The notes beneath the pieces were generated by a model, which saw only the letters and a list, made by a program, of their open reading frames with translations, had not been told where the DNA came from and did not search any database. Made by a program: the position numbers and the translations under genes. A stretch of DNA of 64,000 bases from positions 1 through 64,000 of the forward strand of contig NZ_JTDL01000016.1 of NCBI RefSeq assembly GCF_000802235.1. The letters run 5' to 3'. This document shows positions 39,593-41,259 of the stretch, piece after piece. Every line of letters starts with the position of its first letter. Position 1 is the first letter of the stretch. This DNA is from Sinomonas humi. Its GTDB lineage: Bacteria > Actinomycetota > Actinomycetes > Actinomycetales > Micrococcaceae.

Positions 39593-40843
39593 CTAGTCGC
39601 CGGCCCGCTGCTGCGCGAGCCGGATCTCGAGGATTGCGTCCATGGTCTGCTGGACCTTCTCCGAGGCTCCCGCGTAACTGAACTGTTCGCGGGCGTCCTT
39701 CAGCAGTTCGAGCGCCTCGTCATTGCGGCCGAGCGCCTTGAGCGCCCGCCCGTAGAGGAGCGCGACCTCGCCTGCCGTGTGCCGCCCCAGGGCCGTCTTC
39801 TCGGAGTGGATCTCCTTGAGCCGCTCGATGGCCTCGGGAATCTGGCCGTTGAGGTAGAGCCAACGGGCTCGGATGAAGGCGACCTCGAGCTGCTCGGGCC
39901 TCGATCCGCCCACGATCGAGAGGGCGAGCTCGGCACGTTCGATGGCGGCGAGGGTCTCGGGCTCGACGATCCCGCCCGAGAGACGGACAGCGGCCGAGGC
40001 TTTGTTGAACCGGGCCCAGAGCTCGATGTCGTTGGCGGGGGAGAGCAGCTTCGCGGCGCGCTCGTGGTGCTTGACGCCCTCCTCGTAGTCCGCACGCATG
40101 AACGCGACGTTGCCGATCACCCACTCGACCTCGCCCGAGAGCTGCCCCATGGACTCCTCGTCAACGAGGGTGCCGAGGATTCGGCAGTAGTCCCACGCCT
40201 CGTCGAGGCGACCGCTCTCGGCCAGCGCCCCGATGAGGGCGCGCAGCGCTCCGATGTAGATCGTGGAGCCGGCCGGAAGCTGGGCACCGAGGCGTACCGC
40301 CTCGCGGGCGTGTTCGACGGCGGTGCCAAGCTGGCCGAGGCCGTGGGACACCGCTGCGAGCATCTGGTGTGCGCGCACCGCGAGGCCGTCCGACTCCGCG
40401 ATGATGGGGTGCTCGAGGAGGTGCTGGACGATCCGCTGGCACTCGGCGAGCTGGCCCTGCTTCATGAGGCACTCGGCCTGCATGTAGGTCATGTTCCACC
40501 ACGCGCTGTTGTTCTTCGCCTCGAGGGCGAACTGTGCGGCGGTTGCGGCGTGGCTCGCCGCCTGCGCGTAGTCGCGCATGTCCCAGGCCTGCCGGGCGTA
40601 GAGGCCCGCCAGGACATACTCGGCGTCGTTGGCCGTGACGGGCTGGCTCCAGGCCTCCAGTGCCTTCGGAGCGAGCTCGAGCCGGCGCGCGAGCTCTTGG
40701 ATTACCTCGGGGGTGGGCTCACGGCGCCCTGTTTCGAGGAGGGAGATGTAGCTCGGCGAGTACAGGTCCTTCCCGAGCTCTGCCTGCGTCAGCCCACGCT
40801 CGAGGCGCTCGGCTCGCAACTTTTCGCCGAATCCGCTACCCAC
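39593..40843 (-). CDS. Helix-turn-helix regulator with TPR domain (RRNPP-like)
   Basis: The 416-residue protein starts with a Cro/CI-type helix-turn-helix (GEKLRAERLERGLTQAELGKD and SYISLLETGRREPTPEVIQE, residues about 5-58) and then about 340 residues of paired helices with TPR features, such as ALEAWSQPVTANDAEYVLAG, AAQFALEAKNNSAWWN, AVEHAREAVRLGAQ, YCRILGTLVDEES, AIERLKEIHSEK and ALLYGRALKALGRNDEALELL. This design matches the peptide-sensing RRNPP group (Rgg, PlcR, NprR types). GTG at 40843 is favoured by GAGGAGGAAG upstream. It is divergent from the repeat-peptide gene with 155 bp between starts, so the peptide is its plausible ligand; this is not proven. Confidence 0.85.
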   Translation of the reverse strand: MGSGFGEKLRAERLERGLTQAELGKDLYSPSYISLLETGRREPTPEVIQELARRLELAPKALEAWSQPVTANDAEYVLAGLYARQAWDMRDYAQAASHAATAAQFALEAKNNSAWWNMTYMQAECLMKQGQLAECQRIVQHLLEHPIIAESDGLAVRAHQMLAAVSHGLGQLGTAVEHAREAVRLGAQLPAGSTIYIGALRALIGALAESGRLDEAWDYCRILGTLVDEESMGQLSGEVEWVIGNVAFMRADYEEGVKHHERAAKLLSPANDIELWARFNKASAAVRLSGGIVEPETLAAIERAELALSIVGGSRPEQLEVAFIRARWLYLNGQIPEAIERLKEIHSEKTALGRHTAGEVALLYGRALKALGRNDEALELLKDAREQFSYAGASEKVQQTMDAILEIRLAQQRAGD

Positions 40844-40904
40844 AACTTCCTCCTCGACTGGCCCCCCACCCAGTGGCTTGGGGGTAAGGCGATAGACTAG
40901 CGGC

Positions 40905-40943
40905 TTGACACCTGCTGTGGATGTTATTTTACTTGGGGTGTCA
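40905..40943. promoter_or_regulatory. Inverted repeat in divergent regulator/peptide promoter
   Basis: TTGACACC at 40905-40912 and its exact complement GGTGTCAA at 40936-40943 are separated by 23 bases. On each strand the TTGACA can act as a -35. This symmetry midway between divergent genes is what an operator for a dimeric regulator would look like. Confidence 0.6.
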
Positions 40944-40998
40944 ATCACGACAAAGCACGCTCTGCCCGATTGCACCCGCTACAACATAAGGACACGAC

Positions 40999-41259
40999 AT
41001 GCTCAAGAAGCTGACTGCGTCACTCGCCCTCATCGGCGCGCTGGCAGTTGGAGGCGTTTCTGTTGCCCCGACCGCCATCGGCAACTGGCCCGACCCCATG
41101 AAGACCACCGCGATCGGCAACTGGCCCGATCCTATGAAGGCCACGGCCATTGGCAACTGGCCCGATCCCATGAAGGCCACGGCCATTGGCAACTGGCCTG
41201 ACCCCATGAAGGCCACCGCGATCGGCAACTGGCCCGACCCGATGAAGTCGACCTTCTGA
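40999..41259 (+). CDS. Secreted precursor with five 12-residue peptide repeats
   Basis: The 86-residue product has a Sec-type signal: MLKKLTASLALIGALAVGG (residues 1-19), a likely cleavage after VSVA at residue 23, then five tandem 12-residue repeats (residues 24-83) each ending TAIGNWPDPMK, and a closing STF. Only the first two residues of each repeat vary (PT, TT, AT, AT, AT). Codons vary between repeats while the residues do not, so the peptide is under selection. Cutting after Met-Lys would release identical short peptides. AAGGA lies six bases before the ATG. No homologue comes to mind, and a peptide pheromone role is inferred from design and from the adjacent TPR regulator. Confidence 0.85.
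   Translation: MLKKLTASLALIGALAVGGVSVAPTAIGNWPDPMKTTAIGNWPDPMKATAIGNWPDPMKATAIGNWPDPMKATAIGNWPDPMKSTF
41068..41247 (+). repeat. Five 36-bp coding repeats of the peptide precursor
   Basis: Five in-frame units of 36 bp encode 12-residue repeats. They differ at third codon positions (for example GCC ATC, GCG ATC, GCC ATT; GAC CCC, GAT CCT, GAC CCG) without changing the core residues, so recent identical duplication does not explain their likeness. Confidence 0.9.

Follow-up and report, generated by a model that had tools for sequence, protein, structure and literature searches.

The window analyzed here, a stretch of 64,000 nucleotides from Sinomonas humi, holds a gene pair that is real and strongly conserved: a regulator with a helix-turn-helix (HTH) and tetratricopeptide repeats (TPRs) and, divergent to it, a small precursor carrying five copies of an octapeptide (Table 1). 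The evidence as a whole is best explained if the two genes form a peptide-signalling pair of RRNPP-like action, as known from Bacillota, an explanation given a probability of about 0.8. The pair reads best as an RRNPP-like peptide/receptor system in Actinomycetes that family models do not match. An earlier note on this DNA had proposed a TPR regulator coupled to a multi-copy peptide precursor, and that core idea is now strongly supported: the pair is conserved and linked, the peptide is under selection, and peptide and receptor diverge together. The reach of the system is wider than was originally claimed for this locus.

Table 1. Features of the regulator-precursor locus, numbered from the first position of the window
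Feature	Position	Strand	Details and basis
HTH-TPR regulator, candidate cytosolic peptide receptor	39593..40843	-	416 aa, GTG start; ORF and translation, Pfam
Conserved element TTGACA-N17-TTTACW-N5-TGTCAA	40905..40944		alignment of 25 intergenic regions
Peptide precursor, Sec-type leader then five peptide copies	40999..41259	+	86 aa; ORF, divergent homologue in 80/80 loci
Sec-type leader MLKKLTASLALIGALAVGGVSVA (KK, hydrophobic core)	40999..41067	+	sequence by eye; homologues with similar leader
Peptide copy 1, IGNWPDPM	41077..41100	+	
Peptide copy 2, IGNWPDPM	41113..41136	+	
Peptide copy 3, IGNWPDPM	41149..41172	+	
Peptide copy 4, IGNWPDPM	41185..41208	+	
Peptide copy 5, IGNWPDPM	41221..41244	+	

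The gene pair and its repeats

Pfam assigns HTH_3 (7e-12) and several TPR models (best 1.1e-9) to the regulator, in agreement with the HTH and TPR-like helices that the earlier note had read in it. The open frame of the regulator continues upstream of the GTG at 40843, to 40975; the start was set at this GTG because homologues start there. Both genes lie where that note had placed them, divergent and with 155 bp between the GTG at 40843 and the precursor ATG at 40999, and its 86-residue precursor with a Sec-type leader is likewise in place, the leader being judged by eye. The array spans 4.9 copies of a 36 bp unit with 89% matches, so that IGNWPDPM recurs every 12 residues. Five identical 12-residue repeats had been claimed; the number holds and the full identity does not, as the residue preceding TAIGNWPDPMK is P, T, A, A and A in turn. 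A degenerate GNWPDP pattern has five matches in the array and one elsewhere in the genome, and none in the reversed control; by this comparison the array is not a product of chance.

The unit conserved across species is the octapeptide [IV]GNWPDP[M], and the trailing Lys is not conserved. Among 226 repeats in 81 genes, the position after the repeat is a stop in 68, R in 48, S in 47, K in 31, Q in 8, G in 8, V in 6, T in 6 and another residue in 4. Of the 81 precursors, 68 end exactly at the M, V or A of the last copy, one residue past GNWPDP. Since the residue following the core may be R, S, K, Q, G or others, a Lys-specific cut is unlikely, and the cleavage after Lys envisaged from the single locus was rejected. 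Polyprotein precursors of the yeast alpha-factor type carry several copies of one peptide in each secreted precursor. The precursor described here resembles them in being multi-copy and predicted to be secreted, but differs in that neither Lys nor a dibasic site is conserved between its copies.

Selection on the octapeptide

The peptide sequence is under selection, as synonymous codon changes between the repeats had suggested. In 11 precursors with regular 12-residue spacing, whose units were positioned by period alone, pS and pN between units are 0.48 and 0.035 for the octapeptide and 0.53 and 0.24 for the remaining four residues, the spacer. All octapeptide changes trace to one unit of a single precursor (L144) that a longer spacer puts out of register; the other units printed are IGNWPDPM. 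An earlier codon measure on motif-picked repeats gave a pN of 0.004, which is biased low because those repeats were selected by the motif itself. Across the 226 motif-picked repeats of 81 precursors there are 97 kinds of spacer over 145 intervals, and the residues between cores range from 3 to 25 with the octapeptide kept. A recognisable degenerate copy, for example GNWADQ or IGNSPDS, occurs in 8 of the 81. A recent DNA-level repeat was considered for the array and is not the whole story, the copies differing in their codons.

Conservation among close relatives

A search of named genomes gave 296 receptor relatives, the best 80 of which, from Sinomonas, Arthrobacter, Paenarthrobacter and Pseudarthrobacter, were kept. 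All 80 loci have a divergent precursor, starting 124-217 bp away and carrying between one and six copies of GNWPDP (two in 37 loci, four in 18, three in 15, one in 6, five in 3 and six in 1); in one of them, L152, the repeats are mostly GIWPDPM. By eye, these homologues have a Sec-type leader resembling that of the window precursor. Orthologues of the regulator were found in 15 of 15 Sinomonas genomes searched, and a family search of 245 genomes (103 matching at E <= 1e-60) added 21 orthologues of 67-79% identity in two genera. The GNWPDP precursor is divergent at all 36 of these orthologue loci, a set that shares species with the set of 80. The earlier note had suggested looking for the repeat motif beside HTH-TPR genes and had taken homologous regulators mostly without the repeat gene as the sign against its idea; the close homologues have the precursor in 80 of 80 cases, and the wider relatives in 73 of 111 by the fixed rule given below.

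The convergent neighbour is purC in 79 of the 80 close loci, and the remaining locus (L156) stops at a contig end. P0002 of the Sinomonas pair has no match in phage or plasmid collections. With this neighbourhood and without such matches, a mobile-element origin of the Sinomonas pair is not supported. Several Sinomonas genomes encode further receptor paralogues (L021-L031) of 40-71% identity, near which no W-P precursor was found; these are possible orphans or eavesdroppers.

The intergenic element

The intergenic region itself holds a conserved element. In all 14 genomes tested, from three genera, its TTTACW-N5-TGTCAA part has a single occurrence, always between receptor and precursor; the reversed control gave two matches. 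When the element was used to look for a regulon in three overlapping genome sets, it turned up at no place but the locus itself (6 of 6, 8 of 8 and 14 of 14 genomes, with 0, 0 and 2 matches for the reversed controls); with no second copy in the genomes tested, no regulon beyond the locus is visible. A promoter and terminator scan found no terminator. On the minus strand it found two promoter-like sites, where 0.1 would be expected; the one at 40953-40926 overlaps the element and points at the receptor gene. The rule of the scan cannot score the TTGACA-N17-TTTACT arrangement. The element is best described, from its sequence, as a candidate for overlapping divergent promoters, an operator, or both, and it may be promoter sequence alone.

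Receptor structure and comparison with known systems

The AF2 model of the regulator has a mean pLDDT of 80.8, with a good helical TPR part and a low-scoring HTH part, and has the form of a TPR superhelix. In a Foldseek search with this model, eukaryotic LGN TPR domains and designed TPRs rank first, and PlcR:PapR and Rap:pheromone structures are among the matches. PlcR aligns poorly (TM 0.38/0.54, rmsd 10.8), and in view of this ranking the fold says TPR superhelix only. Invariant polar or aromatic residues lie on the A (inner) helices in 11 cases and on the B helices in 2 (p 0.02), an excess that is not significant at a looser 90% conservation cut (15 vs 9, p 0.29). In sequence, PlcR matches the regulator over the HTH only (E 0.03). 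The Pfam and NCBIfam libraries include RRNPP models, and no RRNPP family appears among the regulator's matches up to E 1.

The RRNPP or RRNPPA systems of Bacillota and phages, such as PlcR-PapR, NprR-NprX, Rap-Phr and AimR-AimP, share with the present pair a TPR receptor of 250-500 aa, either with an HTH (PlcR-like) or without one (Rap-like), and an adjoining gene for a small exported propeptide. Passages of PMC10075063 define the receptors by 250-500 aa with TPRs, plus an HTH for the regulator types. The regulator has this size and make-up, with 416 aa, Pfam HTH_3 and TPR, and a helical AF2 model, and a small propeptide gene, typically exported in such systems, adjoins it at 80 of 80 close loci (leader by eye); Pfam and NCBIfam up to E 1 place it in no RRNPPA subfamily by sequence. 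The differences are its occurrence in Actinomycetota, the divergent layout, a Trp-Pro core common to the peptides, an intergenic element seen at the locus only, and the missing RRNPP family match. The known range of RRNPPA is Bacillota and mobile elements, and the present pair falls outside it, in Micrococcaceae and Streptomycetaceae; plasmid matches exist for a distant Streptomycetaceae relative and for P0002 there are none. In RRNPPA systems, a mature peptide of 5-8 aa is re-imported by an oligopeptide permease and binds the TPR groove. Four SBP_bac_5 proteins are encoded in the window's genome.

The same source, in the parts concerned, applied RRNPP_detector to Firmicutes and viruses and introduces Actinomycetota as signalling typically through small molecules (PMC10075063). 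According to PMC9765709, the propeptides of AimR, NprR, Rap and PlcR commonly contain multiple copies, and propeptides with up to 8 copies occur in Bacillota according to PMC11343458, so the earlier remark that RRNPP precursors usually encode one peptide was overstated. The companion remark that nothing like this was known in Micrococcaceae stands insofar as no description was found in openly licensed papers, and falls short in understating the reach of the system beyond the locus. Among those openly licensed papers, no relevant description was found of W-P peptides or of RRNPP systems with Arthrobacter, and the main text of PMC12700828 contains no word beginning with actino or streptomyces. 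Another parallel is offered by the leaderless communication peptides of Bacillota (RopB-SIP/LCP), in which very short ORFs without a signal sequence encode the signal, as part of PMC10518010 describes. The window precursor, having a Sec-type leader, is not of this kind, and relatives at L116, L235 and L247 do have a leaderless short ORF beside the receptor. A difference is that here a single genome, for example G008 or G007, can contain the same peptide code both with a Sec-type leader and in leaderless form.

A wider family of Trp-Pro peptides

Small ORFs with other Trp-Pro-core repeats are often found divergent to paralogous receptors of other genera and to relatives consisting of TPRs only; the repeats include FVGNWPDAV, VGIWPNS, GIWPDS, VGDWPH, VGEWPH, IGWWPN, NNWPY, IGDWPN and others. 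One fixed rule, which is post hoc in that many of these loci had already shown the pattern when it was written, found a divergent W-P precursor at 73 of 111 distinct HTH-TPR or TPR-only receptors. These 111 are the receptors among loci fetched from family-search matches (not all matches), with near-duplicates dropped and L273 set aside since its ORF runs across a masked stretch. The control positions gave 2 of 111 upstream on the same strand and 5 of 222 downstream; the former two are L006 and L009, where the precursor array occupies that region on the opposite strand. Weak cases among the 73 are L112 and L239, with one copy, distant or leaderless. Of the 38 receptors without a precursor by the rule, two (L071 and L234) have one by eye. 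No W-P precursor was found near many receptors of genus g24 and near the Sinomonas paralogues, which may be orphans, losses or missed cases. Most W-P precursors of the survey keep a Sec-type leader.

Peptide and receptor types diverge together. A tree was built of the 73 receptors and L071, whose label was assigned by hand. Over these 74 receptors, the peptide core changes 21 times, the minimum for 22 types, against 31-33 times in 200 shuffles. The tree is a quick one with several long branches, that of L239 being the longest, and since relatives share receptor and peptide by descent, the test shows pairing and co-inheritance, not specificity. One genome, G227, holds both an HTH-TPR receptor with IGNWPDPM (L063) and a TPR-only receptor with IGWWPN (L117). 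The TPR-only receptors are a Rap-like branch; relatives lacking the HTH were observed at L117, L129-L133, L135, L230, L231, L233, L234, L236, L237, L241, L242 and L244-L246, with divergent precursors of their own bearing IGWWPN, NNWPY, IDNWPN and others. Leaderless single-copy precursors of 19-32 aa, ending in IGDWPHA[AD] or VGDWPD, were also seen divergent to HTH-TPR receptors (L107, L110, L116, L235 and L247).

The octapeptide is also encoded away from the pair. The 15 Sinomonas genomes have 11 GNWPDP matches beyond the linked copies, compared with 18 in 209 family genomes outside the three genera and 4 in 245 for the reversed control. Ten of the 11 were read, and in all ten the frame stops one residue past GNWPDP; the copy at L263, which has no Shine-Dalgarno-like site and ends in E, may be chance. 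Leaderless mini-ORFs of 11-29 aa with a Shine-Dalgarno-like site, ending in IGNWPDP[M/V/I], were observed at L262, L264-L267 and L269. Those at L262, L266, L267 and L269 are only 11 aa long, and the mini-ORF products in Sinomonas include MSSIGNWPDPM, MYSIGNWPDPM and MSSIGNWPDPV, each followed by a stop. By eye, the mini-ORFs at L262, L266 and L269 adjoin a gene resembling a surface-protein gene, though one that Pfam does not match, and an isocitrate dehydrogenase gene lies near all three (Pfam IDH in L262 and L266). Pfam, run on eight proteins upstream of mini-ORFs, returned nothing but one sub-threshold collagen-like match. On contig C40 of the window's genome (L274), a single-copy ORF of 64 aa begins with a hydrophobic leader, and a relative of this ORF occurs at L268. 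Several leaderless ORFs of genus g9 lie behind genes whose products look secreted, and the one at L121 mixes IGWWPN and IGNWPDPM. As a separate observation, genes whose products end in FDPGSTPD, FDPGSSPD or FDPGCSPD directly precede GNWPDP mini-ORFs (L136, L267, L271 and L119-L121).

Relatives in Streptomyces and Kitasatospora

A search of the order (347 genomes, E <= 1e-40) matched 23 genomes, 20 of them in Micrococcaceae, and a search of the class (345 genomes, E <= 1e-20) matched 11, four in Micrococcaceae and seven in four other families. At these distant receptors, ORFs with a hydrophobic leader encode GGSWPT three times (L238), DIGWP twice (L298) and DIEWP twice (L299); L239 and L300 have single, less certain W-P ORFs, and no precursor was seen at L240, L297, L303 and L304. 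In the taxonomic family of L298, Streptomycetaceae, 92 of 297 genomes have a match at E <= 1e-30, and the lower-scoring matches may be other HTH-TPR regulators. Thirty loci were read whole, these being the best-scoring matches and not a random draw. Under a looser rule, a small ORF with [VIL]xWP is present at 15 of the 30, and nine of these 15 ORFs are multi-copy; 14 are upstream and divergent (two at 0.8-1 kb) and one, L333, is downstream, and nowhere else in the 30 loci satisfied the rule. The stricter first rule finds 9 of 30 (L327 looks spurious) and one chance match elsewhere (L309). The precursors of these Streptomyces and Kitasatospora relatives bear [DE][IV]xWP, some beside biosynthetic genes, and a PqqD-like protein is encoded near one Kitasatospora locus. 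The L333 precursor is identical to that of a Kitasatospora plasmid, at matching coordinates.

Searching plasmids with the L298 protein gave 37 records: 35 from Streptomyces, 1 from Kitasatospora and 1 from Embleya. All six plasmid regions that were read (L335-L340) have a W-P ORF. It is directly divergent to the receptor in L336 and in L338, where, being single-copy and leaderless, it is the least certain of the six, and downstream of the receptor in L339. In L335, L337 and L340, which are of one cluster kind, it lies some 1 kb upstream, separated from the receptor by an acyl carrier protein gene. The L335 precursor, from S. globisporus C-1027, ends in DDEVEWP and sits amid oxidoreductase, acyl-CoA dehydrogenase, thioesterase and carrier-protein genes, on a plasmid that presumably carries the C-1027 enediyne cluster. 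Across the six regions, some of the receptor/W-P ORF loci adjoin NRPS, ATP-grasp and acyl carrier protein genes, and several W-P ORFs are annotated merely as hypothetical proteins.

Proposed mechanism and alternative explanations

For the signalling pair, we infer a route from export, processing and import to binding, and from there to the direction of regulation and the output of the system. The precursor would leave the cell through Sec, and proteases would cut it down to approximately [IV]GNWPDPM; a last copy would need an N-terminal cut alone where it ends the protein, and inner copies two cuts. The peptide would then be taken up by an oligopeptide permease or, in the case of leaderless copies, be produced directly in the cytosol. 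Within the cell, it may bind in the concave groove that the TPRs of the HTH-TPR receptor form, and thereby alter the receptor's hold on the conserved element between the divergent genes. The system would in this way control its own expression and probably some further output.

An unlikely variant places the action of the peptide mainly inside the producing cell, with unexported precursor or mini-ORF products binding the receptor directly, so that the receptor would report Sec capacity or the transcription of genes adjoining the mini-ORFs and not population density. It draws on the unlinked leaderless Sinomonas ORFs, which by eye follow surface-protein-like genes and have a Shine-Dalgarno-like site, and on leaderless single-copy precursors, such as MKILQAPNPASAGTRVGDWPD followed by a stop, that are divergent to receptors. 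A Sec-type leader is nonetheless kept in the precursors of the 80 close loci and in most of the 111-receptor survey, and the leaderless peptides of a Streptococcus are, in the relevant part of PMC10518010, secreted and reimported all the same.

It is also conceivable, at rather long odds, that the exported peptide is an effector (an antimicrobial, an enzyme inhibitor or a RiPP core) whose production the TPR regulator controls in answer to another signal. Since the element is found at this locus only in the genomes tested, the precursor looks like the main target, which suits an effector, as does the PqqD-like protein in Kitasatospora. Against it, peptide types follow receptor types over 74 pairs, as they should for a receptor that reads its peptide; the neighbour seen to be conserved, at 79 of 80 loci, is purC and not a maturation or immunity gene; and 11-aa leaderless forms exist. 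A structural role is very improbable; the precursor would then be a repeat protein of the cell surface, never cut to peptides and linked to the regulator by a stable chromosomal accident. Surface proteins commonly carry tandem repeats behind a signal peptide, as this precursor does, yet here the octapeptide is kept as copy number and inter-core length vary (1-6 copies, 3-25 residues), 68 of 81 precursors end exactly at its last residue, it recurs at unlinked places, and the divergent arrangement is seen again in paralogues that have other peptides.

Implications

With peptide signalling as the preferred reading, it seems on balance that Actinomycetes own a wide family of Trp-Pro peptide signals and that TPR receptors, some with an HTH and some lacking it, read them. 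A single code would be issued in three ways, as Sec-type multi-copy precursors, Sec-type single-copy precursors and leaderless mini-ORFs behind surface-protein genes, and some Streptomyces pairs would lie beside, and maybe control, biosynthetic clusters. If Arthrobacter-like soil bacteria and Streptomyces have a peptide-receptor family whose code can be read, many signal-receptor pairs would become testable. Such a family would also provide a natural experiment in specificity, with HTH-bearing and HTH-less receptors and 22 peptide cores in 74 pairs. Since some Streptomyces pairs adjoin and may control biosynthetic clusters, synthetic peptides could, if this is true, activate clusters that are silent in Streptomyces, and such cheap peptides are possible switches for antibiotic gene clusters.
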